64,000 nt of DNA, taken from NCBI GenBank assembly GCA_030425645.1, contig JAUHZK010000005.1, positions 62,001 to 126,000 on the forward strand, in the 5' to 3' direction. The stretch's first letter is position 1, and each line of letters starts with the position of its first letter. Below, piece by piece: positions 7,951 to 38,890 of this stretch. Below the pieces are notes generated by a model. It had not been told where the DNA came from and did not search any database. It saw only the letters and a program-made list of their open reading frames with translations. The position numbers and the translations under genes were made by a program. The stretch comes from Gammaproteobacteria bacterium (GTDB lineage Bacteria > Pseudomonadota > Gammaproteobacteria > JAPPPA01).

Positions 7951-8019
7951 GGCTGTCAACCCAAACTGGGGCATTGCGTTGACTTTAGTAAGTACCGAAA
8001 AATCCACCGGGGTCAGCGT

Positions 8020-8565
8020 ATGAAATCTATCAGCTTAATTATTGCCACTGCCGTCATTGTGTTCACGGCTGGCGTCAGCACGGCACAGGCCGGCCCACGT
8101 GTTAGCACGAGCCTGCAACTCCACTTTCCGCATGTCAGCGTCGGTCTACACAGCGGCGGCTATGTCAGCCTACGTGGCCACTATGGTCATCACGGTCATC
8201 ACCATCGGCGTCACCATCACCGACATCACCACCACCGGGGTTACGCCAGCTGGCAGCACCGGCCACGACAGCAACATCACTACGGTTACGACTATGGCTA
8301 CGGCGATAGTTATGCACCGCAGCACTACCACCATCGAGACCAGCGAACCCGAGCAGCCGCCAAGCCTGCCGCTAGCCAACCAATGGCAAAAGCCACAAGC
8401 AGCAGCGAGTTAACTCACAAACATCCGCACCATAAAAACCGTCGCCATCATCGCCACGGACCGCATGATGCTCACGGCAAAATTCATCTACGCCAACATC
8501 AGTTTTGCGCCCAAGAATCGCAGCGACCAGAGGCCTGCCTAGCCAGAATTCATCACCAACATTAG
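8020..8565 (+). CDS. Histidine-rich secreted protein
   Basis: This 181-residue protein has a clear signal peptide (residues 1-24, cleavage after TAQA). The mature part is very rich in His, with a block of alternating His/Arg at about 54-73, Tyr/Gly/His repeats around 85-104, and a second His/Lys/Arg cluster at 133-155. A single Cys-x(9)-Cys pair sits near the end. Such composition suggests periplasmic binding of divalent metals or of anionic surfaces; no enzyme motif is visible. It lies 69 bases after aceF and converges on an araC-type gene. Function is not known; metal binding is inferred from composition. Confidence 0.7.
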   Translation: MKSISLIIATAVIVFTAGVSTAQAGPRVSTSLQLHFPHVSVGLHSGGYVSLRGHYGHHGHHHRRHHHRHHHHRGYASWQHRPRQQHHYGYDYGYGDSYAPQHYHHRDQRTRAAAKPAASQPMAKATSSSELTHKHPHHKNRRHHRHGPHDAHGKIHLRQHQFCAQESQRPEACLARIHHQH

Positions 8566-8588
8566 GGACAGAACTAGAGCAGCTGCCG

Positions 8589-9404
8589 CTAGGGCTCGTC
8601 ACACTGGCAGTTATGTAACTGCAAGTTATTGGGGTTAGCCAGCCAGCTGGGTGAGAAATCGAACATACGCCTGACGGTACGGGCGAAATGAGCCTGATCA
8701 TAAAAACCCACCTCGGCGGCAATATCAGTCAGCATCATGCCGGTTTGCCATAACACCGCTGCCTGCCGCAGCCGCGCCCATAACAGGTACTGACGCACTG
8801 GCAAGCCATACTGCTGCTTAAACAAATGCATAAAACGTGATTCCGACACCTCAGCCTGTTTGGCTAAGGCTTCGATATCTGGGTTTACCGGCAGACTGCG
8901 GCGCAACTCCGTGGCAATAGCTTCAATGCGAGGGTCAAACTCTGGCCGTTCAGGGCGGTAAGCACTAAAGCCGATCAATAGCTGCTCAACTAAATGCCAG
9001 GCGCTATCGCAATCTAAGCTGCCGTTTAGGGCCTCTTGGCACCGTGGTAACAGTGCCGTAATTTTCTCAATGTCGAGCGCAACCGCATCCCGTTCCAGCA
9101 ACACCGGCTCAAGGTAGCGGTACGCCGCACTGTCAGCATCGATCAATAAGTCCAACACGGCACCGTCATGCGTATCGACACACTGCTCGCAGTTTGGCCT
9201 CACCAAGACTGCTCTTGCCGACAGTGGACCGGTATCCGTAGAAACCGTAATCTCGCCATCCAAGCCAATATATAGCGAGGCTGGGAAGTGCATATGCGGC
9301 GTATTAGCCAAGGACCGGCTCGCCATCATCAATACACCCTGCCACAGCCAAACGTGATTGGTTGCTGGCTGTTGCTCAGAATGATGGCTAGGCTTAGAAG
9401 TCAT
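8589..9404 (-). CDS. AraC-family transcriptional regulator
   Basis: The 271-residue protein ends in a typical AraC double helix-turn-helix domain (about 170-262): ALAKQAEVSESRFMHLFKQQ for the first helix-turn-helix and DIAAEVGFYDQAHFARTVRR for the second. The N-terminal part has an AraC-type cupin-like character (HMHFPASLYIGLDGE, about 39-53) with CEQC near 74-77. It is transcribed away from the Mpo1-like gene, and a 12-base imperfect inverted repeat lies between them, so it probably controls that gene and itself (inference). The inducer is unknown. Confidence 0.9.
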   Translation of the reverse strand: MTSKPSHHSEQQPATNHVWLWQGVLMMASRSLANTPHMHFPASLYIGLDGEITVSTDTGPLSARAVLVRPNCEQCVDTHDGAVLDLLIDADSAAYRYLEPVLLERDAVALDIEKITALLPRCQEALNGSLDCDSAWHLVEQLLIGFSAYRPERPEFDPRIEAIATELRRSLPVNPDIEALAKQAEVSESRFMHLFKQQYGLPVRQYLLWARLRQAAVLWQTGMMLTDIAAEVGFYDQAHFARTVRRMFDFSPSWLANPNNLQLHNCQCDEP

Positions 9405-9416
9405 TTTTTTGATGAT

Positions 9417-9488
9417 TTTTAGTCACGACAGTTGCGTACAAGCATGGCATAAACAATAGGCATAAAGTAACCTCAATCGTGACCAAAA
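9417..9488. promoter_or_regulatory. Inverted repeat in the araC / Mpo1-like divergent promoter region
   Basis: Arms TTTTAGTCACGA (9417-9428) and TCGTGACCAAAA (9477-9488) match at 11 of 12 positions and lie 48 bases apart, about four to five helical turns. They flank the divergent start region, as expected for operator half-sites or paired sites of the adjacent regulator. Confidence 0.5.
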
Positions 9489-9513
9489 GATTACTGGCTA
9501 GGAGGATTTATCC

Positions 9514-10014
9514 ATGCGTACATTAGAAGAATTTTTGAACGAATACGCAAAGACCCATATGAACCCGGTGAACTCCGCTATTCATATGATTTGCGTTCCC
9601 ATTATCGTAGTTTTCACACTGGGCCTAGTGTGGGGCGCCACTGATCTTATCTATGGCGGCTATCTAGCCGGTAAAACCATCGCCGGTATCGACGCCTTCT
9701 TGCTACTCAACGGCGGCACCTTAGGCGTTATCTTTATGCTGCAGTTTTACGCACGCCTAAATATGAAGCTATTTGTGATTATGATCGGCTTCCTCGCCTT
9801 TAGCTGGTGGGTGCTCTACAGCATTCATACCGCTGGTTATAACGTGCTACTCGTTTCTGCCGTGATTTGGGTGGCCGCATGGATTGGCCAATTTATCGGC
9901 CACCATATTGAAGGCGCCAAACCTTCATTTACCGACGACCTAGTATTTCTACTGATCGGCCCAGCCTTTGTACTTAACAAAGTACTACGCAAAACTGGTG
10001 GTGCTTGGGTTTAA
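9514..10014 (+). CDS. Mpo1-like (DUF962) membrane protein
   Basis: The protein has 166 residues and four or five hydrophobic helices. The N-terminus carries the family signature: EEFLNEYAKTHMNPVNSAIHMICVP, with conserved Asn and His residues, and a later GQFIGHHIEGAKPSF stretch supplies the second His cluster. Yeast Mpo1 in this family is an Fe-dependent dioxygenase acting on 2-hydroxy fatty acids; bacterial members are mostly uncharacterised. An AGGAGG ribosome site sits 8 bases before the ATG. It is divergent from the AraC gene and followed by a terminator-like repeat. Confidence 0.82.
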   Translation: MRTLEEFLNEYAKTHMNPVNSAIHMICVPIIVVFTLGLVWGATDLIYGGYLAGKTIAGIDAFLLLNGGTLGVIFMLQFYARLNMKLFVIMIGFLAFSWWVLYSIHTAGYNVLLVSAVIWVAAWIGQFIGHHIEGAKPSFTDDLVFLLIGPAFVLNKVLRKTGGAWV

Positions 10015-10034
10015 ACCCCACTACCAACCAAATT

Positions 10035-10104
10035 AAAAATGGGACAGACCCGTTTGGGTCTGTCCCATTTTTTATTTCGGTTGGGTCTGTCCCATTTTTT
10101 ATTT
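10035..10104. repeat. GGGACAGACCC hairpin with tandem half-copy, probable terminator
   Basis: A 17-base perfect stem (10035-10051 with 10056-10072, loop GTTT) is built on GGGACAGACCC and ends in a T-run, so it can terminate the Mpo1-like gene. A 24-base direct copy of its right half with the T-run follows (10054-10077 and 10081-10104). The second copy overlaps the last codons of the convergent gene. The motif is one that recurs between genes in many gammaproteobacteria (general knowledge), so it may be a REP-like mobile repeat as well. Confidence 0.75.
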
Positions 10105-10596
10105 ACCTGGCCCCTTTCCATTACTAACTTGGACTAGACCACCCAGCAAATCAGACGGAATATTCCTAAATTTAGCTCTCAGATAAATAACAATAAGCAC
10201 CCATATCAACATTAAATGAGTAAACAAAAATACAAAAATATTATGATCAAAACGGCTAAGTGAATATGGGTGTACAACCTCTGAATCTATTTTTACTTCA
10301 ACGGGCGTTACAGAGTTAATAAACCTTTTCCAATAACCGCTAACCCAACGATGTTTCAAAAGGGCTGCTTCATCACACCCTAGGTTTTCGGACTTAAAAG
10401 GTACTACCCTTTTATTTTCAACATTTAATTCGAGAAGCCTGGCGCCGTGTTTGAGCCTATGGCAAGAAACACCAGTAATTCTACCTTCAAAGAATTCAGC
10501 ACCCTCTAGGGCTCCCGCCTCGGCAGCATACCAATACCAATTAAATGGCAATATAAACAGCAAAATGAAGGATATACGTTTACTAATTTTAGTCAT
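10099..10596 (-). CDS. Hypothetical protein with N- and C-terminal membrane segments
   Basis: The family is not recognised. The 165-residue product has a hydrophobic N-terminus (8-24), an exposed central domain of about 100 residues with two Cys (in GVSCHRL and NLGCDEA), and a second hydrophobic segment (about 120-142) followed by a short basic tail. It is preceded by a GGGGGG ribosome site. Its base use is more AT-rich than its neighbours, and its 3' end runs into the GGGACAGACCC repeat, so it may have arrived with mobile sequence. No function can be given. Confidence 0.6.
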   Translation of the reverse strand: MTKISKRISFILLFILPFNWYWYAAEAGALEGAEFFEGRITGVSCHRLKHGARLLELNVENKRVVPFKSENLGCDEAALLKHRWVSGYWKRFINSVTPVEVKIDSEVVHPYSLSRFDHNIFVFLFTHLMLIWVLIVIYLRAKFRNIPSDLLGGLVQVSNGKGPGK

Positions 10597-10729
10597 TTAC
10601 CCCCCGATACCTTTTTGTTCATCTATCTACTTATTCAGTCATCTCGAACACATGCAACGGTGCCTGAGTCGCAAATTTATATTCGGGCAGACCCAAGAAG
10701 GTTGATACCACTTTTTTATCATTTTTTTG

Positions 10730-11668
10730 CTAACTGGCTTTACTGGCAGCAATAGTCACCCAATCCGCCACATCGGCTAGACGTGCTAAATATTGTTCAC
10801 GGCTACTAACGTTGCCAACGAGCTGCTGTTTTAGTTCTTCTCGCAGTTTATCTACCAGCTTATTCAAACGCCGTTGATGTAAACCTAACTTAGCCTGTAG
10901 CGGATCGGTAACAAAACCTGACATTGAGGCTGCGAGGGCGAGAATCACAATTAACAGCAACGTGGCGATAATACGTGCTCCCCAGTCAACTTCCGGCGGA
11001 AACCAGCCATACCAAACCCGCCCTAGGCGCTCACCTAACCAGAAGTCGCGCACAGCGTTTTCCCATGCCCACCAGCTGGCGAGTGCCGCGCCTCCACCTA
11101 AGGCCCCCGGCGTAAACTGTTTAAAGGCTACCGCGCCAAAAGCAGCCATGCCTAGGCTACTGGATAACTCTGCAATCGCCGTGCGGGCTCCAAACAAGCG
11201 CGCTTTTAATTGCTGGCTTTGTGACTGCAGTACATTGCCTTCTAAGGCCTGCTGCCAAACCACTTCGTCAATACCGGCAACGTCGGCCATATAGCGTAAT
11301 AAGGGATCCGGTTCCTTAGGACTGATATCCAGCAGTTCTTTTTCGATTAAGCCGGTGAGATGCCGCTGCAAGCGAGTGGAAAATCCAACTGGCAGACGCC
11401 CGATAAAATCACAAGCCCGAGGCCAACCGCATAATCGCAACAACTGCCCCAGCAACTGCAGCAATAACCAAAAAGGCGCCCAGGCAATATTCAGCGGCAC
11501 GCGCAGCAAATCCCAGCCAAAGGCTTGCCGATTTAACCGCCGCGAACCGGCGCCCTGCAAATGCCTGCTGACAAAGCTATCAATGCGGCTTTGGCAGTCA
11601 TCGCAATAGCGGTCAATCGCGGTTTCTAGCGAAGGCTGTTGTTCGGTGCTCACACTCGGTACTCGCAT
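10730..11668 (-). CDS. Conserved membrane protein (DUF6635-like)
   Basis: The 312-residue protein has an amphipathic N-terminal part with a conserved-looking FGWDLLRVPLNIAWAPFWLL stretch (about 50-70), a Gly/Ala-rich hydrophobic pair (about 170-200), another helix around 236-255, and a basic C-terminal coiled segment. The N-terminal pattern resembles uncharacterised proteobacterial membrane proteins (DUF6635), by memory only. No catalytic motif is visible. It is alone on its strand between an AT-rich hypothetical gene and a divergent hydrolase gene. Confidence 0.6.
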   Translation of the reverse strand: MRVPSVSTEQQPSLETAIDRYCDDCQSRIDSFVSRHLQGAGSRRLNRQAFGWDLLRVPLNIAWAPFWLLLQLLGQLLRLCGWPRACDFIGRLPVGFSTRLQRHLTGLIEKELLDISPKEPDPLLRYMADVAGIDEVVWQQALEGNVLQSQSQQLKARLFGARTAIAELSSSLGMAAFGAVAFKQFTPGALGGGAALASWWAWENAVRDFWLGERLGRVWYGWFPPEVDWGARIIATLLLIVILALAASMSGFVTDPLQAKLGLHQRRLNKLVDKLREELKQQLVGNVSSREQYLARLADVADWVTIAASKAS

Positions 11669-11829
11669 TCGGCATTTAGGGGGATTCTGGATACGGTTAA
11701 AGAATTAGATGGGTGACTGATTACCGCGCCAGCCAGCTTACGCGCGGCAACCACTCGCTTGCTAAGCTTACTGTGGCAAAGTTAGGCTGTTATTAGCAAA
11801 TTTTATCCAATCTTGGGGGAGTGGACGGC

Positions 11830-12759
11830 GTGAAAAAAGGTTTACTGATTGTCATTTTGGTATTGGCGGCAGCGGTGGCTTGGGCCAATTTATTTCCAGC
11901 TCAGTTTATGGGCGTGGCCCTAACCGCAGAGCGCGACCGCAATGGCCTAAGTTATAAAACCACTGAAGTTGATGGCGAAACTTGGCACTACCTTGAAGGT
12001 GGCATTGGTCAGGCCGAAACCGTAGTGATGGTGCATGGTTTTGGTGGTGACAAAGATAACTGGACGCGTTTTGCTGGCTCTATCACCCCCTTCTACCATG
12101 TGATTAGCATGGACTTACCCGGCTTTGGCCAATCCGCCCGCCATGAGGGTTGGAGCTATCGTATTGGCGACCAGGCAGATCGTGTTCATAAGTTTTTAAC
12201 ATCGATTGGCGTCAACCGCTTCCACTTGGTTGGTAACAGCATGGGCGGCAATCTCACCGGGGTTTATACCCATCGTTACCCAGACAGTGTGATTACCATG
12301 GGCTTGTTTAATAACTCGGGCACTGCCGAGCCAGTTGCTAGCGAAATGACCAAACGGCGCGAGGCTGGCGAGCCTAACCCCTTAGTGATTAGTGCGATTG
12401 AAGAATACGACGCCTTGCTTGATTTTGTGTCGGTCAAAAAACCTTGGCTGCCCGCGCCGGCGAAAAAATACTTCGCCCAAAAAGCGCTCGATAACGCAGC
12501 CTTTAATACCTATATCTTTAACCAATACAAAGGCGACCGCGGTGCCGCGTTAGAAGACAAACTGCCCTCGATTACGCAGCCGACCCTAATCCTTTGGGGC
12601 GATGGCGATGATGTACTCGACAAAAGCCGTATTGACGTAATGACGCCCTTGTTAGCCAACGAGACCGTTGTGATCATGCCAGAAACCGGTCACGTACCGA
12701 TGGCAGAACGCCCCGGCCAAACCGCGCAGCATTACCTTAGCTTTATTAACCAACACTAA
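11830..12759 (+). CDS. Membrane-anchored alpha/beta hydrolase
   Basis: This is an esterase/lipase-like alpha/beta hydrolase with an N-terminal signal anchor. The oxyanion segment VHGFGGDKDNW, the nucleophile elbow GNSMGG, the acid in WGDGDDVLD and the His in TGHVPMAERP are all visible in order. Two GTG starts are possible: 11821, and 11830, which has GGGGGAG at 8 bases and is preferred here (309 residues). It is followed after 4 bases by a HIT-family gene, so they are likely co-transcribed. The substrate is unknown; lipases of this type act on acyl esters. Confidence 0.85.
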   Translation: MKKGLLIVILVLAAAVAWANLFPAQFMGVALTAERDRNGLSYKTTEVDGETWHYLEGGIGQAETVVMVHGFGGDKDNWTRFAGSITPFYHVISMDLPGFGQSARHEGWSYRIGDQADRVHKFLTSIGVNRFHLVGNSMGGNLTGVYTHRYPDSVITMGLFNNSGTAEPVASEMTKRREAGEPNPLVISAIEEYDALLDFVSVKKPWLPAPAKKYFAQKALDNAAFNTYIFNQYKGDRGAALEDKLPSITQPTLILWGDGDDVLDKSRIDVMTPLLANETVVIMPETGHVPMAERPGQTAQHYLSFINQH

Positions 12760-12763
12760 ACTC

Positions 12764-13171
12764 ATGGGAGCTTTTGCATTACATCCGCAGCTAGCGGCCG
12801 ACACCATAGAAGTCGGCTCCGCCGGTTTATGCTCGGTACTGCTAATGAACGACAGCCAATACCCCTGGCTGATTCTGGTACCGCAACGGCCTGATATCCG
12901 TGAGGTATACGACCTAAGCGCCAGCGACCAAAGCCAGCTGTGGCAAGAGGTCAGTCATTGCGGCCAAGGGCTGATGGACTTGCACCGTGGTTTTAAACTC
13001 AATATCGGCGCCTTGGGCAATATGGTGCCGCAGCTACATATCCATGTGATTGCCCGCCAAACCGATGACCCGGCTTGGCCTGGGCCGGTGTGGGGAGTTA
13101 AGCCTGCAGTGGCTTATTCTGAGGATGAGTTAGCTGCGTATTTGCCGCAGTTGCGGGAGTTGCTCGGATAG
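12764..13171 (+). CDS. HIT-domain protein
   Basis: This 135-residue histidine-triad protein would hydrolyse or transfer nucleotides from small nucleotide conjugates. The signature appears as PQLHIHVIAR (about residues 88-97): two of the three His of the classic HxHxH are present and the first position is Gln, a variant common in this proteobacterial subgroup. Upstream, NDSQYPWLILVPQRPD matches the usual N-terminal half. It follows the hydrolase gene directly. Confidence 0.9.
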   Translation: MGAFALHPQLAADTIEVGSAGLCSVLLMNDSQYPWLILVPQRPDIREVYDLSASDQSQLWQEVSHCGQGLMDLHRGFKLNIGALGNMVPQLHIHVIARQTDDPAWPGPVWGVKPAVAYSEDELAAYLPQLRELLG

Positions 13172-13211
13172 CACTCGCATAGGTCTGTATCACTTGCGGA
13201 TGAGCCGGCTA

Positions 13212-13798
13212 GCGGTTGTTTCGGGCCTGCCACTTTGCTGGTGTCGGTTTCGGCCTTTAGAAGGTTTTATACGCTTTCGGTAAGTTTCCTTGGTGCGGGC
13301 CGAGTGACTTTTCTTTGTCTCGCCAAAGAAAAGTAACCAAAAGAAAGGCGATCCCACCATGCGGCCCCTCCGGGGTCCCCTGCGCTACTCGCCAAATCGA
13401 GCGCCTGCGGAACTCGCTTCGCTCAAACAGGCCGCAGGCTCCATCTCGATTTAGCTCCGTTGCTCGGCCGCATAGAAGGCAAGGGTACTGCTAACCAGCT
13501 GCATTGGTAGCGTGAGGTCTTTCCCTAAAGGCCCCTTTTGCGCAGCTGAGCATCGCAGGGGATTTTGGATTGAGGGAGCGGCTTGTTTGAGCGCAGCGAG
13601 TTCCCGCGACCGCCAAAATCCGCGAGAAGCGCAAGGAACCCCGAAGGGGCTGCGCGGTTGGCGGTGGCTTTTTTGGTTACTTTTTTCGCCAAGGAAAAAA
13701 GTAACTCGGCCTCACCAACAAACTTACCGAAAGCGGATAGAACCCTCTAGGGCCGAAACAACCACGAGCCAAGGTTAAGCCCCTAAACCGACACCAAG
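13212..13798. repeat. Long palindromic repeat element, copy A
   Basis: No gene lies in this 640-base gap. Positions 13240-13765 match 56405-56942 in the same orientation at high identity. The element is itself a giant imperfect palindrome: the left arm (GGTTTCGGCC ... CGCTTTCGGTAAG ... GGGCCGAGTGACTTTTC ... AAAGAAAAGTAACCAAAAG) is mirrored by the right arm (GTTACTTTTTTCGCC ... AAGTAACTCGGCC ... CTTACCGAAAGCG ... GGGCCGAAACAACC). The inner parts also pair, around TTTGAGCG-AGCGAGTTCC. In this copy outer pieces extend to 13212 and 13798. It has no coding signature and could be a non-autonomous mobile repeat or a structured DNA/RNA site. Confidence 0.85.
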
Positions 13799-13811
13799 GT
13801 CTTGCGCGGTA

Positions 13812-14591
13812 TTAGATAAACACCCGCCGCAAAATCTCAGTCGTGCGACTCTCTGGATTCTCACGAATCTTCTGCTCTTCCTTACCCAGCTGCTTAAACA
13901 AACCATCCAAGGCGCCGTTGGTAACGTGATCATCTAGATTTAGATCAACATCAGCAATGTTGTTGTCTTTTAGGAACATGGTTACCGGCGCGGCAATGCG
14001 TTGCAGCTGTTTGTAGCTACGCGTGACGCCGGTATCAGATGTCGCCCGCGATACTAATGGACGAAAACGTTTATACAGCTCACCCTCGGTTGCGTTACGC
14101 AGAAATTCTGTAGCCGACTGAGGGCCGCCTTCGACAATACTTTTTACATCCGCCAATTGCAGGCTTCGAATGGCATTGCCAAAAATTTCAGCCGCCTCGG
14201 GTACCGCACTCTCTGCGGCGCGATTCAAGGTGACGATAAAGTTGTCGACCATTTCTTCTTGGCCCAGCTTCCGCAACGGCCCTTCCAAATAGCTCAGTTC
14301 CTGCGGGGCTTCGATACGCACCAAAGGATTGGCAGAAAAGCCGCCGGTTTTGCCAAGCTGATTGATAGCGCGCTCAACACCAACCGCCAGCGCTTCGCGC
14401 ACGCCTTCTACCATCTCGGTTTCAGATAACACTGCCAAGGCGTTCTGTTCGATGGAGCTACTGTCGCCACCACCAAATAAACCGCCAAAGGTTTCCTCAA
14501 ACCAGTCCCCAAAACCCGCTTGCGCAGGTGCACTGATGGCCACGCTCGTGGCGATAAGCAATACAGATAAATAACGCACATTACACCCCAT
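13812..14591 (-). CDS. DUF4197 exported protein
   Basis: The protein is 259 residues from the ATG at 14591, which places a proper signal peptide (RYLSVLLIATSVAISAPAQA) at the N-terminus. An in-frame ATG at 14636 would add 15 residues but lies inside two terminator hairpins. The mature protein is helical, with GFGDWFEETFGGLFGG near its start and the AINQLGKTGGF/NPLVRI region and later FKQLGKEEQKIR typical of DUF4197 proteins. Function of the family is unknown; the protein is probably periplasmic. Confidence 0.82.
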   Translation of the reverse strand: MGCNVRYLSVLLIATSVAISAPAQAGFGDWFEETFGGLFGGGDSSSIEQNALAVLSETEMVEGVREALAVGVERAINQLGKTGGFSANPLVRIEAPQELSYLEGPLRKLGQEEMVDNFIVTLNRAAESAVPEAAEIFGNAIRSLQLADVKSIVEGGPQSATEFLRNATEGELYKRFRPLVSRATSDTGVTRSYKQLQRIAAPVTMFLKDNNIADVDLNLDDHVTNGALDGLFKQLGKEEQKIRENPESRTTEILRRVFI

Positions 14592-31367: not shown

Positions 31368-32243
31368 ATGGACGAAAGTTTATTTCCCGCGCCGATGCTA
31401 AAGGCGTTTCGTTTGCTATTTAATTCCGTCGGCCGCGTGTTTCCCAAAGCCATGGGTAAATACGCCGCCAAGTTGATGACCACGCCACAAAACTTTCCGG
31501 CACCAAAACGCGAACTTGATGGCGTTAGCGACGCCGAAGAAGTGACATTAAGCAACGGTATTCGAGCTTGGCACTGGGGCCAGAAAGGTCAACCCATTGC
31601 CCTGATTGCGCATGGCTGGATGGGTCGCGCGAGCCAAATGTTTGCCTATGCACAGGCCTTCGCTAAGGCTGGCTATGAAGTCTACTCGATTGCCCTACCG
31701 GGCCATGACGGCTCTGCCGGGCTTGGTAAACAAGGCAATCGTACGCACCCGGTTCATACGCGTCAGGTAATCGGCCAGGTGGCTAAAGAGCTGGGTGAAA
31801 TTGAAGTCGCGGTTGCCCACTCCTACGGTGCAGCTTGTTGCATGTGGTCAATTACTGACGAGGGTGCCAATATCAAACATATGATTTCAGTGGCCTCGCC
31901 AACGCATTATTTGCATCGCGAATTTGCCGAGATATTCCATATTCGTGGCCGTTGCTTGGATGGTTTTATCGATGGCATGAGCGAGTTCATGAACTTCCCG
32001 GTCGACAAGATCAACTTTGAAGATATCGTTACCGATGAGATGCAAAGCAAAATGCCACCACTGCTAATCTTGCACGGCCGCGACGATGTGGAGGCGCCGC
32101 TCTGGCACGCCGAGAAAAACGCAGAAATCATTCAACAGGCCGATCTGATCGTGGTTGATGACTGCAACCACCGTAAGATTACTTGGGACCCCAATGCTAT
32201 TAACGCTGCCCAAAACTGGCTGCAGCAACAGCAGGCTGCTTAG
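31368..32243 (+). CDS. Alpha/beta hydrolase
   Basis: In this 291-residue hydrolase the oxyanion segment is IAHGWMGRASQM, the nucleophile elbow AHSYGAAC, the acid HGRDDVEAPLWH, and the catalytic His is in DDCNHRKITWD. N-terminal residues 1-35 resemble those of family members acting on acyl esters. Its stop overlaps the convergent NYN gene by 4 bases (shared TTAG). Confidence 0.86.
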   Translation: MDESLFPAPMLKAFRLLFNSVGRVFPKAMGKYAAKLMTTPQNFPAPKRELDGVSDAEEVTLSNGIRAWHWGQKGQPIALIAHGWMGRASQMFAYAQAFAKAGYEVYSIALPGHDGSAGLGKQGNRTHPVHTRQVIGQVAKELGEIEVAVAHSYGAACCMWSITDEGANIKHMISVASPTHYLHREFAEIFHIRGRCLDGFIDGMSEFMNFPVDKINFEDIVTDEMQSKMPPLLILHGRDDVEAPLWHAEKNAEIIQQADLIVVDDCNHRKITWDPNAINAAQNWLQQQQAA

Positions 32244-32725
32244 AGTAGTAAATCTTCGCCAATGGGGTGGAAACGGCTGGCGGCGTTAATCAATGCATTA
32301 GCGGTCAGGGTTTCTACCCCATAAACCTCAGCCTCGATACCGTATTCGCGAATCACCTTAAGTAGCAAAAGATCGAAGTCGCCGTCCCCCGACAGCAATA
32401 TCACCTTGTCCACTTTCGGTGCCCAATCCAGCATATCAATGGCAATGCCAACGTCCCAGTCGCCTTTGGCCGAACCGTCGGCGCGCTGAATAAACGGTTT
32501 CGTCTTAACCTCAAAACCAATATGTTTTAGGGCATCTCTAAACTTGGCTTGGCCATCGTCGCCTTCGCGATAAATGGCGTAGGCATTGGCGGCTACGATT
32601 TGTTGTTGCTGGCTAAGCTGTTGCCAAAACCGGCGGTAGCTGAAGGAACGACGAAAGGCATCACGCGTGGTGTAGTAGATGTTTTGCACATCACAAAAGA
32701 TTCCGACCTTTTTCTTATTTTTCAA
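32240..32725 (-). CDS. NYN-domain (LabA/DUF88) putative nuclease
   Basis: This 161-residue protein has the PIN-like NYN fold. Conserved acidic residues appear in GIFCDVQNIYY (Asp13), KGDWDVGIAIDML (about 87-99) and LLSGDGDFDLLL (about 110-121), the set used for metal-dependent RNA cleavage in relatives. Its upstream region is the insertion point of the integrated element (left repeat starts at 32764), so its promoter may be affected by the insertion. Confidence 0.9.
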   Translation of the reverse strand: MKNKKKVGIFCDVQNIYYTTRDAFRRSFSYRRFWQQLSQQQQIVAANAYAIYREGDDGQAKFRDALKHIGFEVKTKPFIQRADGSAKGDWDVGIAIDMLDWAPKVDKVILLSGDGDFDLLLLKVIREYGIEAEVYGVETLTANALINAASRFHPIGEDLLL

Positions 32726-32763
32726 TGACTTAAACCATTTTTTCGTTTAAAGTGCCCCACAAT

Positions 32764-32782
32764 GGGACACTTTTGGGGCACC
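32764..32782. repeat. Left attachment-site repeat (attL candidate)
   Basis: GGGACACTTTTGGGGCACC matches 38734-38752 at 18 of 19 positions. It is flanked by GTGCCCCA (32752-32759), so TGGG(G/A)CAC-type motifs occur three times here, as expected for recombinase core and arm sites. Confidence 0.65.
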
Positions 32783-32786
32783 TACA

Positions 32787-34067
32787 ATGATCGGTGTTGA
32801 TTTAACAGGCTTAGAAATTCGCTCTGGCTCGGTCAGACTTTCCTTCCAATGGAACGGCAAAAGACACAAGAAAACCGTAGGTAAAGCGACCGATGAAAAC
32901 ATAGCGAAAGCCAGCCGTATTTATCATCAAATCAAACAGCACATAGACAACGATACTTTTAATGAGGCGGTGTTTGAAGCAATCCTTGATCAGAAATACC
33001 AACACTCTGGCAGGACGGTTAAACACATTATTGATATGTATCTAGAACGAAACCGCTTCAATGCGGAGCTGGGTAAATACAAAAAAAGCACTCTCTATCA
33101 AGAAGAGCGAAGTTTGCAAAAGCTATTAACGGTTGTCCCACACAATACAAATATTAGTGAAATAACGACAACGACCCTTTATCAAATAGAGCACCAATTT
33201 GTCATTGAAGAAAAGATTGCTCGAAATACCTGCAACTCTCACTTATCAATTTATAAAAAATTGCTCAACTATGCCTACGAAGAGAATTTTATTGAGAGAC
33301 ACCCCTTTGACGGCTACAAGCCGACAAAGAACGAAAACAAGCAAATCACTATTGACGATATATATCAGCCTGACGATATACGAGACATAAGGAGAGCACT
33401 GGTTAACTGCCCAGCCATTTATCACTGTATTTTCAACTATCTCGAATTTTGTTTTTTCACCGGACTGCGACAGGCCGAAGTTCGAGGCTTGCAGGTCGAA
33501 GAGGTTTCTTATATTTCAGACGAAATATTAAGAACAAGACTTGCGAATGACAAAATCACAATCAATCGAAATTTTACTTACGGCGAGTTTGGTCCCGTTA
33601 AAACCGATAAAAGTGCCAGAACGATTGCACTACACCCACAAGCAAAAGTAGCTCTTCAAAATCAGCTAGATTTAATACGACGATTGAATGAAAAGGAACA
33701 AACCAGAATAGAACACGGTTTTATTTGGTTCTCACCAAAAGATTTACAGCCAATCTATTGCCCTAAATCCTTCAATTATTACTATCGAAAATTAATGAAG
33801 AACACGGAAGTCAGACCAATAAGGCCGTTAAAAAATTTCCGTCATAGTTTCGCTGTCAATATGCTCATAGGCGGTGCTAACCCCTTTTATCTGGCTGAAT
33901 ATTTAGGGCATTGCGATTTAACAATGTTGTATAAAGTCTACGGCAACCTAATTAATCAAGATATTGATACATTGGAGTTGAGCAAACTGCGGCTTGACCC
34001 CGACTATCATTTAACCGAAGCAGAAGAACAAGCACAAAAAGATAGTCAACCAGATTTGACTTGGTAG
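32787..34067 (+). CDS. Tyrosine recombinase (phage-type integrase)
   Basis: The 426-residue protein has an N-terminal arm/SAM-like region (about 90-185) and a catalytic domain with Arg in FTGLRQAEVRGL (~227), KNFRHSFAVN (box II, Lys in place of His, Arg ~352), LGHCDLT (His ~376) and the nucleophile Tyr in KVYGN (~385). Only 4 bases separate the left repeat from its ATG, so no promoter fits inside the element in the integrated state. It should integrate and excise the element at the 19-base repeats. Confidence 0.93.
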   Translation: MIGVDLTGLEIRSGSVRLSFQWNGKRHKKTVGKATDENIAKASRIYHQIKQHIDNDTFNEAVFEAILDQKYQHSGRTVKHIIDMYLERNRFNAELGKYKKSTLYQEERSLQKLLTVVPHNTNISEITTTTLYQIEHQFVIEEKIARNTCNSHLSIYKKLLNYAYEENFIERHPFDGYKPTKNENKQITIDDIYQPDDIRDIRRALVNCPAIYHCIFNYLEFCFFTGLRQAEVRGLQVEEVSYISDEILRTRLANDKITINRNFTYGEFGPVKTDKSARTIALHPQAKVALQNQLDLIRRLNEKEQTRIEHGFIWFSPKDLQPIYCPKSFNYYYRKLMKNTEVRPIRPLKNFRHSFAVNMLIGGANPFYLAEYLGHCDLTMLYKVYGNLINQDIDTLELSKLRLDPDYHLTEAEEQAQKDSQPDLTW

Positions 34068-34139
34068 AAGTTGCCGAACTCGGCAGCTTAACTGCCATAA
34101 TTGACAAAAAAACAGGTTTATCAGGAGGACCTAACTAAA

Positions 34140-34676
34140 ATGAAAAAAGCAGTGTTGTTTGTATTTGCGGTGTTGGTTGGTGTTTGGCTGGCTTACATTT
34201 CAATGATGGTCGGCATTATTCCGCAGCCGGAATTTTTAGCATTGACCAAGCCAGACAAGTTCAGTGAGCTAGGCGATAGTTTGGCAGCCATTGATGGGCT
34301 ATTTACTGCGATTGCAATTTTGTTGGGTCTGGTTGCCATCCTACTGCAAGGCAGAGAATTGCAAGCGAGCACTGAAGCCCAAACTGAACAAGCAATGGCT
34401 CTTAAGGAGCAGATGCAACAACAAGAAACCAGCAACCGATTAAATGCTTATACAGCACGATTACAGTATCTCATCGCTGATAACGAAAGGCTGGAACGAC
34501 AAGCCGCGAATGTCAAAGGCCAGATCGATAACTTTGGTCCGTATGACAAAGGAACACCCAGAGAAGAGGATTTGACGAAACTCTGGGATATTCTCAAAGC
34601 CACACAAGAAAGACGAAAGCGACAAAATTTAGAAGTGTCTGAGATCGATGCAAAAATCAAAAAACTGCTGGCTTGA
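34140..34676 (+). CDS. Two-TM coiled-coil protein, abortive-infection-like N-terminal architecture
   Basis: The start at 34140 follows a GGAGG site and gives 178 residues. Two membrane helices (about 4-24 and 54-70) are separated by FSELGDSLAAIDGLFT, and the second is followed by LLQGRELQASTEAQ and a long coiled coil to the end. This order, with GDSxxAxxxLFT before helix 2 and xLQxxEL after it, resembles putative phage abortive-infection (PutAbiC-type) proteins, but the C-terminal domain of those is missing or shorter. It is in the accessory slot after the integrase. A defence role is only a hypothesis. Confidence 0.6.
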   Translation: MKKAVLFVFAVLVGVWLAYISMMVGIIPQPEFLALTKPDKFSELGDSLAAIDGLFTAIAILLGLVAILLQGRELQASTEAQTEQAMALKEQMQQQETSNRLNAYTARLQYLIADNERLERQAANVKGQIDNFGPYDKGTPREEDLTKLWDILKATQERRKRQNLEVSEIDAKIKKLLA

Positions 34677-34677
34677 T

Positions 34678-35304
34678 TTACTCAACACATATCTCGAAAG
34701 ACCTAGAAGCCGTGTCGGTCCTGCTACCGCCGTTATATCTGGTTCCTTTAACATACCTAGACCAAACAAAATTTAATCTAGCTCTGTCGCCTGAGGTTGC
34801 ATTAGGGACATAGACATAAATGTTGCTATTACCGTAGATAGTTACGGCTGTACCCCAAGAGGTTCCATTAGTGCTTACATATCCGTCAGCACTGCTAATA
34901 ACCATTTTGTCTCTACTGCCTAAAGAAGAACCGTAAGGCCAAACTTCTTTGATATACACAAATTTGCTCTTATTGGGCAGCTTGTCGGCTTGTTCATACA
35001 TTCTGACAAGGGTGCCGTTGTAACGACTATGGGTAATGCTTGAGCTGTTTTGGTGGCACAAGAAATAATCAGCATCTTCATTACTTTCTGTCTCTGCTGC
35101 TGTTGGGTCGCCACAGTTCGTTGTGCATTCTGGTGAATTAAAAGAAGGGCTTGTAGCAACTGCACCGCCACCACCTATAAATATTGAACTGTCATATTGT
35201 GGGTGTGGATCAATGTTTCCGTACTCTTCATTAAAAGGAACGGCACCCGCAAGAGGTGATAGCAGCGAGGCCGTTATAAAAGTCATTATTATTTTTCTAT
35301 TCAT
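34678..35304 (-). CDS. Secreted protein with four Cys, unknown
   Basis: From the ATG at 35304 (GGAG upstream) the product has 208 residues and a signal peptide RKIIMTFITASLLSPLAGA. The mature part has Cys residues in PECTTNCGD, YFLCHQ and the C-terminal FEICVE, suggesting two disulphides, and is rich in Ser, Tyr and Gly with likely beta structure. Its start overlaps the stop of the MobC-like gene by a few bases, so the two are coupled. No family was recognised; a surface or exclusion-type role would suit a mobilization operon (guess). Confidence 0.65.
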   Translation of the reverse strand: MNRKIIMTFITASLLSPLAGAVPFNEEYGNIDPHPQYDSSIFIGGGGAVATSPSFNSPECTTNCGDPTAAETESNEDADYFLCHQNSSSITHSRYNGTLVRMYEQADKLPNKSKFVYIKEVWPYGSSLGSRDKMVISSADGYVSTNGTSWGTAVTIYGNSNIYVYVPNATSGDRARLNFVWSRYVKGTRYNGGSRTDTASRSFEICVE

Positions 35305-35593
35305 TGTTATTCTCCGGTTTGGGGGAGAACTCAGGAATATCAAACAACAATCTCTCGACTAATTCATAGTCCGCTTCTTTCAGTGCTTCCTTGCACACAG
35401 ACAAAATATTCTCTCTTGTCTTAGGCCCGCCTTTCTCATATCGCTTCAGTAAAGCAAACCCCATTAAAAATTTTGCTCTGCTTTGGTGCTTTCGTCTCGC
35501 TGCCGAAATTCTTCTCTTAACCAAGTTAAGTTTCTGTCTTTCCCTGTTGACCCTTTGTTCTTGTAATTTTAATTTATTCTCTAAGTTCCCCAT
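35297..35593 (-). CDS. MobC/TraD-like mobilization accessory protein
   Basis: The protein has 98 residues from the ATG at 35593. The N-terminal half is a highly charged coiled coil (LENKLKLQEQRVNRERQKLN), followed by RRKHQSRAKFLMGFALL and a short acidic tail. A basic Arg/Lys coil with a KxLMGxALL-type segment, divergent from a MobA/MobL relaxase, is the usual form and position of the small TraD/MobC accessory proteins of MOBQ-type plasmids. Assignment is by layout and composition. It overlaps the secreted-protein gene. Confidence 0.55.
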   Translation of the reverse strand: MGNLENKLKLQEQRVNRERQKLNLVKRRISAARRKHQSRAKFLMGFALLKRYEKGGPKTRENILSVCKEALKEADYELVERLLFDIPEFSPKPENNNE

Positions 35594-35635
35594 AAATAAA
35601 TAATAACATAAATAATTTATATTTTGCAAATAAAA

Positions 35636-35649
35636 TTAACTTAAGTTAA
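35636..35649. promoter_or_regulatory. Perfect palindrome upstream of the MobC-like gene
   Basis: TTAACTTAAGTTAA is a perfect 14-base palindrome 43 bases upstream of the MobC-like start, in an AT-rich promoter-like region; candidate operator for autoregulation. Confidence 0.45.
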
Positions 35650-35700
35650 AATATAAATACGATGAAAAATAAAATAGGAAAAATATAAACCAAAAATTAA

Positions 35701-35793
35701 CTTACAGAATTATTTCTGTAAGCCCACTTCTACATTGTTCCAATGTGTGGGGTCTAAAAAGGGTTAAAACCCTTTGCCGACGGCTTATCCCGC
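35701..35793. other. Candidate origin of transfer (oriT)
   Basis: Four inverted repeats lie in a row just upstream of the relaxase gene: CTTACAGAA/TTCTGTAAG (35701-35722), CCCAC..ACATTG/CAATGT..GTGGG (35723-35751), AAAGGGTT/AACCCTTT (35758-35775) and GCCG-A-CGGC (35776-35784). The last is followed by TTATCCCGC (35785-35793), close to the YATCCTG-type nick region of IncP-like plasmids. Position between mobC-like and relaxase genes is typical for oriT. The nick site is inferred. Confidence 0.5.
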
Positions 35794-35832
35794 TTTATTT
35801 TTCTTCGAAAAACAAAGAGAAGAAAAAAGAGC

Positions 35833-36807
35833 ATGCTGTATCACCTACAACACAAAAATCACACACGAAAAGATGGGCAGAATGCTGTGAAAATGGCTGC
35901 TTATCGTTCTGGTGAAAAGTTGTATGACGATAGAACAGGTAGAACCTATTCTTCTGGTGATCCTGAAAGGGTCGGACATAAAGAAATTTTGTTGCCTGAC
36001 TCTGCACCCCGCAGGTTCCTGGACCGTGAAACCTTATGGGGTGAAGTCGAACAAGCTGAGAAAAGAAAGGATTCTCAACTATGCCGCGAGTTCGAAATTT
36101 CTTTGCAACAAGAATTCACGAAAGAGCAAAACATTTCGGCGGCTCGAAAGTTTTCACAGCAATTTGTTGATGAAGGCTTAATTGCCGATATGTGCTTTCA
36201 TGGGTTAGATACACATAACCCGCATGTGCATATTTTGCTTACCACCCGAGAACTCACCCCTACTGGCTTTGGCAAGAAGATTCGCAAACACAGCAACAAC
36301 GGTAAGGACTGGTATAACAAAAAAGACGAAATGGAATACTGGCGAGAAAGTTGGGCCACTATTGTCAATCAACAGTTTGAAGCGATTGAACAGTTTGAAG
36401 AGGTTGCAGTGCCTAAGAGAGTTGACCATCGTTCTTATGAAAGACAAGGTTTAGATATACAGCCAACAAGACGAATACCAGCAGAAGAATACAGAGCGAA
36501 TAATCCTGAGGTTCAAGCCGTTAAGCAGCAGAGGAAGTTCAACAAAATGTATCTGCTCCAAAGAGTTGCTGTGCTTATAGCAAAACGAGCCTACGAGAAA
36601 ACCAAGCAGAAAGTTCAGCAAATTTTGTTAGATAGAAAGCTGGTTGCTGAAAGCAAACAAGAATTCAAAGCATCACAACAGCAGCCGAAATATAGAGGCG
36701 GTTTAAATCAACTGATTGCGGATAAAACAAGAGACGAACCCAAGCCACAGAGAGCACCGCCAAGACGAAAACCACCTGACGACGATTTAGGATATTCAAT
36801 GTCATAA
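35833..36807 (+). CDS. MobA/MobL-family relaxase
   Basis: The 324-residue protein should nick oriT and pilot the single strand in mobilization. Tyr24 in MAAYRSGE is the catalytic tyrosine position of motif I. Motif III is complete: CFHGLDTHNPHVHILLTTR with His123, His128, His131 and His133. W-x-x-W and NQQFE segments and HRSYERQGLDIQPT follow, as in MOBQ relaxases. It lacks a primase or helicase domain, so it is a short form. The C-terminus is basic and Pro-rich. The GAGAAGAAAAAAGAG leader provides the ribosome site. Confidence 0.9.
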   Translation: MLYHLQHKNHTRKDGQNAVKMAAYRSGEKLYDDRTGRTYSSGDPERVGHKEILLPDSAPRRFLDRETLWGEVEQAEKRKDSQLCREFEISLQQEFTKEQNISAARKFSQQFVDEGLIADMCFHGLDTHNPHVHILLTTRELTPTGFGKKIRKHSNNGKDWYNKKDEMEYWRESWATIVNQQFEAIEQFEEVAVPKRVDHRSYERQGLDIQPTRRIPAEEYRANNPEVQAVKQQRKFNKMYLLQRVAVLIAKRAYEKTKQKVQQILLDRKLVAESKQEFKASQQQPKYRGGLNQLIADKTRDEPKPQRAPPRRKPPDDDLGYSMS

Positions 36808-36829
36808 AAAAGCCACCGCTGGGGTGGCT
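36805..36829 (-). terminator. Terminator after the 84-residue hypothetical gene
   Basis: AGCCACC-GCTGG-GGTGGCT forms a 7-base stem; on the minus strand it ends in six T, just beyond the stop at 36842. It also lies at the end of the relaxase gene on the other strand. Confidence 0.75.
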
Positions 36830-36841
36830 ATAGCTCATGTC

Positions 36842-37096
36842 TTATTCAAGACTACTGGAGGAAGTTGGTAATTTAGGCCACTTGGATCCGTAGCTCAGTA
36901 TTTTCCCAATGCTTTGTTGCGGATTACTTTCATCATATTCACCCCAGTATTCTTTTATATCCATTACTTTGCCCTGAGACATGTCTAGGCAACGAATGAA
37001 GGCATAAGATTTAAGGCCGTTTCTTTGATAAACAAGCAAACAGTCAGGGTGAGTATCATCGTAAATTAGTGTTCCGTTTGAATTTGTAGCTTTCAT
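36842..37096 (-). CDS. Small hypothetical protein of the element
   Basis: The start at 37096 is preceded by AGGAAAT at 6 bases and gives 84 residues; an upstream ATG (37117) is less likely. The sequence is soluble, mixed alpha/beta, with LLVYQRNGLKSYAFIRCLDM and a Ser-rich tail. No family was recognised. It sits between two terminators, so it is its own transcription unit, which suggests a small regulatory or accessory protein. Confidence 0.5.
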   Translation of the reverse strand: MKATNSNGTLIYDDTHPDCLLVYQRNGLKSYAFIRCLDMSQGKVMDIKEYWGEYDESNPQQSIGKILSYGSKWPKLPTSSSSLE

Positions 37097-37179
37097 AAAT
37101 AATTTCCTCATGGTCAAGAGCTATAAGGAAATCATATTAAGCTTACGACTAAACTCAATTAGCATTACTAATAAGCAAT

Positions 37180-37208
37180 AAAAAAGCCACCGCATCGGTG
37201 GCTTTTTT
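37180..37208. terminator. Bidirectional terminator after the RepL-like gene
   Basis: A perfect 13-base stem AAAAAAGCCACCG/CGGTGGCTTTTTT with loop CAT serves both strands; it lies 55 bases beyond the RepL-like stop. The stem core repeats that of the 36805 terminator. Confidence 0.88.
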
Positions 37209-37263
37209 ACAAATTCTTTATTATTTATTTTGAAGGAGAAAGAATTTTACTCAGGATTTAGAT

Positions 37264-37782
37264 TTATTTTACCAGCCTTAAATTATTTGTCAATTCTTTA
37301 TTACCACATTTAGGCTTATTATTTTCTTTTTTAGGGTAATTTAAATAAGCCAATTTATCTTTTTTAAGCCTGTTGTGGGTGGCGACCCTTTTCTCATGAT
37401 TGCCTTTCCATCCAAGACTAGGCGACAACTCATAGTCATAACCAAAGTCTCTATCGAAATTTTGTATGAATATATTGTGTTGAACGAATTGCTTTAAAGC
37501 CCTGTTGAGGGTTGAAAGCCCTATGCTTAGTTCCTTTGCGACCTTGTTCTTACACAAAGTAATCTTGTTGTTATTGTTACAACGAGAAAAGATCAGATAC
37601 ATAAGTATGTTGGTTTGCTTGTCTGTTAATAAACCGCTTTTTATGAGTTTGGTGAACTCTCCATGAAACATACTTATATATCCTATATCTAATTTATCTT
37701 TTCTTTCTGGCTTTATTGTGACTGGTAAAGTATTTCCGTCTCTATCATGAAATACTCTCGTATCTTCTCTATATCTTTCCAT
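37264..37782 (-). CDS. RepL-like plasmid replication protein (winged helix)
   Basis: The protein has 172 residues. GLLTDKQTNILMYLIFSRC and NKVAKELSIGLSTLNRALKQF form a winged helix-turn-helix (about 47-100), followed by the YELSPSLGWKGNHEKR segment that is typical of RepL-type replication/maintenance proteins (a Leu/Asn-Pro-x-x-x-W-K-G-N signature). The C-terminus is Lys/Asn-rich. With the relaxase it suggests that the element can replicate as a plasmid when excised. The region upstream carries palindromes and short direct repeats fitting a replication origin. Rep function is by family resemblance. Confidence 0.7.
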   Translation of the reverse strand: MERYREDTRVFHDRDGNTLPVTIKPERKDKLDIGYISMFHGEFTKLIKSGLLTDKQTNILMYLIFSRCNNNNKITLCKNKVAKELSIGLSTLNRALKQFVQHNIFIQNFDRDFGYDYELSPSLGWKGNHEKRVATHNRLKKDKLAYLNYPKKENNKPKCGNKELTNNLRLVK

Positions 37783-37880
37783 TTTTTTATTCCTGAGTTA
37801 ATTAAATGCTGCCGCACTTAATTATTCATGTCAAATATAGAAGTTATATACACATAAAAATCAATGGAAATTTGGTTGTG

Positions 37881-37983
37881 TTAGTAAAATACTAATAGAG
37901 AAAAAATAGAGCCTTACTACATAAGGCTTGTAGAGCATCTGTTGCTCGCTAGCGAGCAAATAGCAACCGCCAGCGAACAAATA
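37881..37983. other. Palindromes and short direct repeats, candidate origin/operator region
   Basis: This AT-rich divergent region holds TTAGTA-AAA-TACTAA (37881-37895), AGCCTTA-CTACA-TAAGGCT (37910-37928), the perfect 18-base palindrome TTGCTCGCTAGCGAGCAA (37942-37959) and two direct repeats AGCGA(G/A)CAAATA at 37951-37962 and 37972-37983, 21 bases apart (two helical turns). The layout suits a plasmid origin with iteron-like sites or paired operators. Confidence 0.5.
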
Positions 37984-38068
37984 TAAAAATAAATTACGAA
38001 TAGCATTGTTAATTTATTTATTTTGCATTTACTATTAATTTTCCAGTTGCCTATTTAGGAAAATTTAG

Positions 38069-38431
38069 ATGGTTAAGCAAGTTGAAGAGTTAGATGCACA
38101 GATTGCTGTGTTACAGCAGCGGAAAGAAGACCTTCTCAAGCAATATGAAGCTCATACAGAGCTTGCAGAGCGATGTAAGGCAGTTGTAGCCGAAGTGAAC
38201 GGTGCAATCGCTCAGGCGGGCTTAGATAAAGCCGAGTTTTATGAGTTGTGTGGTTTGCCCGTGGTGCCGCAGAAGAAAAGCAAGGGGAAACGGAACCAAC
38301 CGACCAAACGATACAAAAACCCTGTTGATGGTCAGCCGGATATTGTGTGTGCTCGCTTAACCAAGGAGTTAATCGAATACAGGAAGCAACATGGCGAAGA
38401 AGCTCTCGCAGCATTACTTATTACAAAGTGA
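38069..38431 (+). CDS. Small basic coiled-coil protein, possible nucleoid-type regulator
   Basis: The N-terminal half of this 120-residue protein (VEELDAQIAVLQQRKEDLL) is a coiled coil, the middle is Lys-rich (KKSKGKRNQPTKRYKNP), and the end is a short helix. A coiled coil plus basic linker and YKNPxDG resembles H-NS-like regulators in outline, but the H-NS DNA-binding loop is not evident. It is divergent from the RepL-like gene across the palindrome region. The next gene overlaps it by 41 bases. Confidence 0.5.
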   Translation: MVKQVEELDAQIAVLQQRKEDLLKQYEAHTELAERCKAVVAEVNGAIAQAGLDKAEFYELCGLPVVPQKKSKGKRNQPTKRYKNPVDGQPDIVCARLTKELIEYRKQHGEEALAALLITK

Positions 38432-38705
38432 GTTTTTGATGGAAATGAACGACAAAGTGTTTGACAAGGTTGAGCAATGTTTTGTCGCAGCCAAACTGGA
38501 TGAATTACTTAGTGAGTTCCCCTTCGCCGCTTTTACTGTTGCCGACCTTTCGCAGCACTTTGAAGTCAGCGATGCGGTTATTAAGCGGCGGTTGGAACGA
38601 ATTTTTATGACTGGCTACCTCCCCTCAATAAAGATAGGTAGTTGTTTCATAGTTGCTCATTGCTACGAGGATTTGAAAGAGGGGATCGGGATACCCACTG
38701 GATAG
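38391..38705 (+). CDS. Helix-turn-helix protein at the right end of the element
   Basis: This protein is 104 residues from the ATG at 38391, which has AGGAAG 5 bases upstream; an internal ATG at 38439 is possible. FTVADLSQHFEVSDAVIKRRLER (about 48-70) reads as a helix-turn-helix, followed by IKIGSCFIV wing-like strands. Size and position beside the attachment site suggest an excisionase-like or copy-control factor. It overlaps the preceding gene and would lead into the integrase after circularisation. Confidence 0.6.
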   Translation: MAKKLSQHYLLQSEFLMEMNDKVFDKVEQCFVAAKLDELLSEFPFAAFTVADLSQHFEVSDAVIKRRLERIFMTGYLPSIKIGSCFIVAHCYEDLKEGIGIPTG

Positions 38706-38733
38706 AAATGGCAAGGGAGAAATTGCCATTTTT

Positions 38734-38752
38734 GGGACATTTTTGGGGCACC
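38734..38752. repeat. Right attachment-site repeat (attR candidate)
   Basis: GGGACATTTTTGGGGCACC is the partner of 32764-32782. It continues into a palindrome TGGGGCAC-C-GTGCCCCA (38744-38760), and a further TGGGACAC lies at 38772-38779, giving four related 8-base motifs on this side. Confidence 0.65.
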
Positions 38753-38890
38753 GTGCCCCAAGAAAACGGCCTTGGGACACCACTAAGTTATTGATTTATA
38801 TACAGTATATGTGGTTTTATAAATATTTTGCACATCTACAAATACAGCGACTTTCTGCAACTCAGCCAAAAAACTCAGCCTAAACCGAAG

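Follow-up and report, generated by a model that had tools for sequence, protein, structure and literature searches.

The stretch analysed here (the window, 64,000 nucleotides, G000:C11:62001-126000) belongs to a genome of 2.75 Mb in 16 contigs. Between an NYN-domain gene and a DEAD-box helicase gene it carries an island with a GC content of 0.32-0.46, against about 0.50-0.56 in the surroundings. The island has nine main open frames, which include a tyrosine integrase, a MOBQ relaxase preceded by a sequence resembling an origin of transfer (oriT), and a RepL-like replication protein. A preliminary description had presented it as a compact, AT-rich, integrated mobilizable plasmid with these three modules; the base composition agrees, each module was identified, and the combination of MobQ and RepL is known as the backbone of a free plasmid. 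From sequence comparison we read the island as very probably a canonical (relaxase-bearing) integrative mobilizable element (IME, also iMOB) whose site, integrase and replicon type are new. The features on which this reading draws are the following.

32682-38836, no strand: whole element including both 11-bp cores, 6,144 bp core to core, from comparison with an empty site
32240-32725, minus: NYN-domain (PIN-like) gene, the target (PF01936, E 3e-41)
32682-32692, plus: attL core TTTTGCACATC, 11 bp, equal to the NYN codons DVQN on the minus strand
32763-32782, plus: left repeat of the preliminary description, reread as a putative arm-type integrase site, with the TTGGGGCA motif at 32773
32787-34067, plus: tyrosine integrase, 426 aa (Phage_integrase, N-terminal Arm-DNA-bind_2, SAM_5)
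35701-35751, no strand: putative oriT, hairpin CTTACAGAA/TTCTGTAAG followed by GCCCACTTCTACATTG..CAATGTGTGGG, aligned with regions upstream of plasmid MOBQ genes (GCGCACTTATACA)
35833-36807, plus: MOBQ relaxase, 324 aa, without a long C-terminal domain; motif I tyrosine (AAYRSG) and HNPHVH intact
37264-37782, minus: RepL-family replication protein, 172 aa; motif YELSPSLGWKGN matches plasmid YRLNPQFGWKGT
37783-38068, no strand: AT-rich non-coding region upstream of repL, with an 18-bp perfect palindrome TTGCTCGCTAGCGAGCAA at 37942-37959; candidate operator or origin
38732-38781, plus: right cluster of four putative arm-type motifs TTGGG[AG]CA (38732+, 38743+, 38754-, 38772+), including the right repeat 38733-38752
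38826-38836, plus: attR core TTTTGCACATC, 11 bp
38826-38869, minus: displaced original NYN 5' end with TTG start, MAELQKVAVFVDVQN; adjoins the DEAD-box gene and continues into element DNA (IYKTT...)

Insertion in the 5' end of an NYN-domain gene

The only other genome of the same genus (G001) has the locus in its unoccupied form: the DEAD-box gene, about 10 bp, and an intact NYN gene of 161 aa (MSAASKIAVFVDVQNIYYTT...). When the flanks of the island are joined at the 11-bp core, the restored NYN protein has exactly 161 aa and corresponds to the one in G001 over its whole length. Because the empty site exists and this join restores the protein, we place the crossover at TTTTGCACATC, inside the NYN-domain gene and thus in a protein-coding site; on this comparison the element occupies 6,144 bp within the gene and replaces its first codons. 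The ends given earlier (32764-38752) bracket a real element, but they fall short by about 80 bp on the left and 84 bp on the right. In the reconstructed attB the core sits in a perfect 8-bp inverted repeat, GTAGATGT-GCAAA-ACATCTAC, an arrangement as expected for the predicted core site of a tyrosine recombinase.

The first 11 codons of the NYN gene in the window (32693-32725, MKNKKKVGIFC) are element DNA. The gene accordingly has two beginnings: it opens with MKNKKKVGIFCDVQNIYYTT..., and a second start, MAELQKVAVFVDVQN, is found at the element's right end, adjoining the DEAD-box gene, where the remnant KVAVFVDVQN occupies the position at which the G001 gene starts. The two NYN-like 44-mers are identical at 31 of 44 positions, against 24 of 44 for the best other position inside the element. 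As read from the sequence, the replacement keeps the gene in frame and preserves its predicted first beta strand, and the rebuilt protein is presumably made and active. The preliminary description had spoken of a non-tRNA site, and there is indeed no tRNA gene within the 64-kb window; what it missed is that the element sits in the 5' end of a conserved protein-coding gene, which it rebuilds.

The insertion point is conserved. Among 30 NYN loci taken from the class, the window's own included, all 30 genes keep D[VI]QN[IL]YYT at this position, and an integrase lies beside the window's copy only. A DEAD-box match was found within the 1.5 kb flank of eight of these loci, G001 included. Of 369 genomes sampled from the class, 45 (own genome included) encode an NYN homologue with an identity of at least about 50%, which suggests a wide possible host range.

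Mobilization and replication modules

The integrase has relatives of only about 22-31% identity over domain-length alignments; none above about 31% was found in genome contigs, viral contigs or the 369 class genomes, and none of those found adjoins an NYN gene. Pattern searches of about 85,000 species genomes and 2.9 million viral contigs returned no element with the same integrase, a method that misses moderately diverged relatives, so that their absence is not proven. A search for the same gene order in other genomes and free plasmids, as proposed earlier, was thus answered in part: MobQ and RepL occur together on the free plasmid pDESACI.02, and the full order with the integrase was found in none of the species genomes.

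The relaxase matches MobA_MobL of Pfam at 2e-58 and passes the MobQ profile of NCBIfam (207.3 bits, cut-off 200). It is 43% identical over 207 aa to the relaxase of pDESACI.02, with AAYRSG and HNPHVH kept. Upstream of it, the GCCCACTTCTACATTG..CAATGTGTGGG segment of the putative oriT can be aligned with GCGCACTTATACATTG..CAATGTGTGCG of pDESACI.02 and with the sequences preceding three further MOBQ genes. The outer stem of the hairpin is altered on both sides (CGCAC/GTGCG to CCCAC/GTGGG), and its pairing is therefore kept. These observations agree with the earlier reading of a short MOBQ relaxase with oriT-like hairpins, as well as its claim that no transfer apparatus is present: the element has no gene of a type IV secretion system (T4SS), and no VirB4 or VirD4 family match was found in the whole genome. 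Both this element and a second one in the same genome, described below, would therefore need an outside helper.

The RepL-like protein scores 24.1 bits with PF05732 (curated cut-off 20.3), and a profile comparison (hhalign) with plasmid RepL proteins gave 97.2% probability and E 3e-11. It had no match at 1e-5 among 72,556 plasmids, nor among phages and viral contigs at strict limits; at a relaxed limit, weak plasmid matches appeared, mostly RepL or helix-turn-helix (HTH) genes of 1.5-4 kb plasmids, one of them a plasmid of 1,526 bp with RepL and one other gene. A single-sequence AlphaFold model (pLDDT 41) was too poor and was left unused. Small RepL plasmids likewise have palindromes just upstream of repL (e.g. 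AGTTACCAATAATGGTAAC), which could serve as origins or operators. In enterobacterial plasmids of 1-2 kb (e.g. L065, L210), initiators of the RepL type often carry annotations as MarR-family or HTH regulators, and RepL replicons are for this reason probably under-counted.

The function of this protein is not to be read from its name, because the RepL-annotated winged-helix protein SEN1990 of the Salmonella island ROD21 is dispensable for maintenance of that island (PMC10655114). It is possible, if rather doubtful, that the protein described here is a regulator, as SEN1990 seems to be, and that the element is an IME without a replicon of its own. Its winged-helix type would fit such a role, and HTH_36/MarR models give the highest scores for its counterpart in the second element. 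Against this, the closest outside matches are RepL or HTH genes of very small, gene-poor plasmids, and the GWKG-bearing C-terminal motif is conserved; SEN1990 is reported to be without the conserved Asn-Pro of RepL proteins (PMC10655114).

The remaining features of the element are these.

34101-34676, plus: membrane and coiled-coil protein, function unassigned; a homologue with 46% identity is encoded in the genome's second element
34678-35343, minus: probable secreted protein with a signal-peptide-like start; cargo, no family
35297-35629, minus: 110-aa protein, no family
36842-37117, minus: 91-aa protein, no family
37179-37209, no strand: strong hairpin with T-tracts on both strands, a terminator between repL and the 91-aa gene
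38069-38431, plus: coiled-coil protein, first of a two-gene operon
38391-38705, plus: small HTH protein adjoining attR; candidate excision or regulatory factor

In an excised circle, the small HTH gene would come to lie just upstream of attP and the integrase gene. The homologue search with the 34101-34676 protein gave, besides the copy in the second element, one further match and no indication of function. This match, of about 43% identity, is at G048:C8 (L061 9759-10292); it stands in an AT-rich series of unrelated genes, almost all of them sharing one strand, which may be a cassette array. The 91-aa gene is framed by two nearly identical terminator hairpins (ATAAAAAAGCCACCG..GGTGGCT), at 36804-36829 and 37178-37203. 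No defence families of note and no RNA families were found. Elsewhere in the window, at 10001-11000, the GC content dips locally to 0.42 around a gene for a 165-aa membrane protein of unassigned function, where no mobile gene was seen.

Mobility and the ends of the element

From these features we propose the following cycle. The integrase would bind the arm sites at both ends together with the core, and carry out recombination between attP and the GATGTGCAAAA block, which lies in the conserved DVQN motif of an NYN gene on the chromosome. Once integrated, the element would give the gene its new start, MKNKKKVGIFC, leaving the original 5' end as a remnant beside the DEAD-box helicase gene. After excision, the circle may be maintained through RepL replication; MobQ would nick the oriT upstream of its own gene, the DNA would pass through the T4SS of another element, and the transferred copy would re-integrate at the same conserved NYN site.

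Several points weigh against this reading. The available data include neither an excised circle nor an attP read nor a second copy. Two positions of the oriT core depart from the consensus, and matches with two mismatches are no more frequent in the 64 kb than expected (four found, 4.6 expected; not significant alone), so the case for an oriT turns on the hairpin and the position upstream of mobQ. RepL identity is only 23-29%, and the ROD21 precedent of a RepL-annotated protein unneeded for maintenance (PMC10655114) applies here as well. Finally, expression of the rebuilt NYN gene is uncertain, because it starts at TTG, has no clear ribosome site, and no promoter-like match is found in the element DNA upstream of it.

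A rival reading is that the element is immobile. The island could be the decayed remnant of an old integration, retained because the NYN gene has come to depend on the 5' end that it supplies; the lack of a T4SS in the genome, the short relaxase, the occurrence in one species genome only and the absence of close integrase relatives wherever searched are all compatible with such a history. We consider it unlikely. The reading frames of int, mobQ and repL are uninterrupted over their full length and contain conserved motifs, each side has arm and core sites, and the foreign base composition has been retained. Moreover, G001 does not carry the element, which is therefore not fixed in the genus.

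It is far less probable that the attachment sites are the repeats first proposed as boundaries, which would make the NYN resemblance at the right end a coincidence. These repeats, described as 19-base, do exist: they are 20-bp sequences at 32763 and 38733 (TGGGACACTTTTGGGGCACC / TGGGACATTTTTGGGGCACC), identical at 19 of 20 positions, 5,970 bp apart and near both ends of the element, where the motif cluster that they belong to is also real. As junctions they are contradicted by the empty site, an outcome that the preliminary description had itself named as one that would refute its reading. Joining the flanks there leaves two NYN 5' ends in tandem, and alignment to the G001 locus then requires an 81-nt gap and 220 gap columns, as compared with a longest gap of 11 and 44 gap columns for the core join; the right-hand remnant, too, stands exactly where the G001 gene begins. 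The repeats lie 80-90 bp inside the true junctions. The motif that they share, TTGGG[AG]CA, occurs seven times in the 64 kb, five of these at the two ends of the element, and since the integrase has an arm-binding domain and the motifs cluster at these ends, they are most naturally read as arm-type integrase-binding sites. An exact search of viral contigs for the arm sites gave no match.

That the element is a phage satellite rather than a conjugative hitchhiker is scarcely credible: the phage-type integrase, the small size and the weak similarity of RepL to phage O/DnaD families point that way, but profile searches of the element genes found no capsid, terminase or packaging homologue, and a MOBQ relaxase with an oriT-like site is present.

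Relation to known elements

As a predicted mobile element integrated in the chromosome between att sites, with its own recombinase and relaxase and with no coupling protein or mating pore, the island corresponds by sequence to the canonical IME or iMOB as defined (PMC5704250, PMC11389934). It shares the integrase, the own relaxase and the lack of coupling protein and mating pore with NBU1 and Tn4555 (MobP) and with the MobV elements of Firmicutes; the putative oriT, which has its support from alignment, would correspond to the oriT of those elements, and some canonical IMEs bear plasmid or phage replication genes (PMC5704250). The earlier statement that this combination cannot be assigned to a named family was thus too strong. 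In addition, a MobQ relaxase (SEN1980) and the RepL-annotated SEN1990 are already found together on an excisable island in ROD21 (PMC10655114). ROD21, with the ROD21-like islands of Enterobacteriaceae, is the nearest precedent for the gene types, by description only. It also has pilus-like, TraD-like and many other genes that the present element, compared by description, lacks (PMC10655114); only the integrase, MobQ and RepL-like types are common to both, and the other element genes match no family.

In other respects the element departs from what has been reported. A 2017 review describes relaxase-bearing IMEs as undescribed in Proteobacteria; it lists Rep_3, RepA/RepC, DnaC/replisome-organizer and Rep_trans as IME replication proteins, RepL not being among them, and we found in it no mention of an NYN integration site (PMC5704250). 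No NYN, LabA or DUF88 gene serving as an integration site was found in a literature search. Integration at the 5' end of a gene does have analogues, SXT in prfC being one. The islands of dusA likewise insert in the 5' end of their conserved target and provide it with replacement 5' coding sequence, first beta strand included; unlike the present element they target dusA and not an NYN gene, and they are diverse islands with the integrase as their sole common feature (PMC4482086).

On the plasmid side, pDESACI.02 of Desulfosporosinus acidiphilus (3,897 bp; MobQ, RepL and two small genes) has the same backbone, with RepL at 25-28% identity and a similar oriT region, but it is a free plasmid of a Firmicute host without an integrase. 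The RepL plasmids of 1.3-4 kb, mainly from Enterobacterales, resemble the element in having a RepL-family protein as their likely only replication gene, and differ in their relaxases, which are MOBV, MOBP or absent; none of those inspected has an integrase.

The same genome contains a second such element, an insert of 7.4 kb at tRNA-Lys(ttt) (G000:C16 ~112180-119606; L049 ~6680-14107), bounded by repeated tRNA-Lys gene sequence at least 39 bp long. It has a different integrase, a DUF4224 protein, a MOBP-type relaxase with a NikA-like partner, and a RepL-like protein (hhalign 98%); in common with the first element are this RepL-like protein and the membrane/coiled-coil protein. That a single genome harbours two distinct IMEs built to the same plan suggests a route taken repeatedly. 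Tentatively, they could be two independent members (MOBQ/NYN and MOBP/tRNA-Lys) of an unnamed class of very small IMEs, in which RepL mini-plasmids repeatedly acquired a tyrosine integrase and which share a RepL-like and an accessory membrane protein, the first using a motif conserved across its gammaproteobacteria-like class relatives.

The element described here would be a relaxase-bearing IME of 6 kb with precise boundaries, in a genome whose gene associations suggest a proteobacterial host. It belongs to a known kind of mobile DNA but is unusual in both its small size and its location. Integration took place in the coding motif that is most conserved in a gene for a PIN-like nuclease, and was accompanied by repair of that gene. 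With two different RepL-bearing IMEs in a genome devoid of a T4SS, the conversion of plasmids to an integrative life and the replication of excised IMEs would become directly testable.

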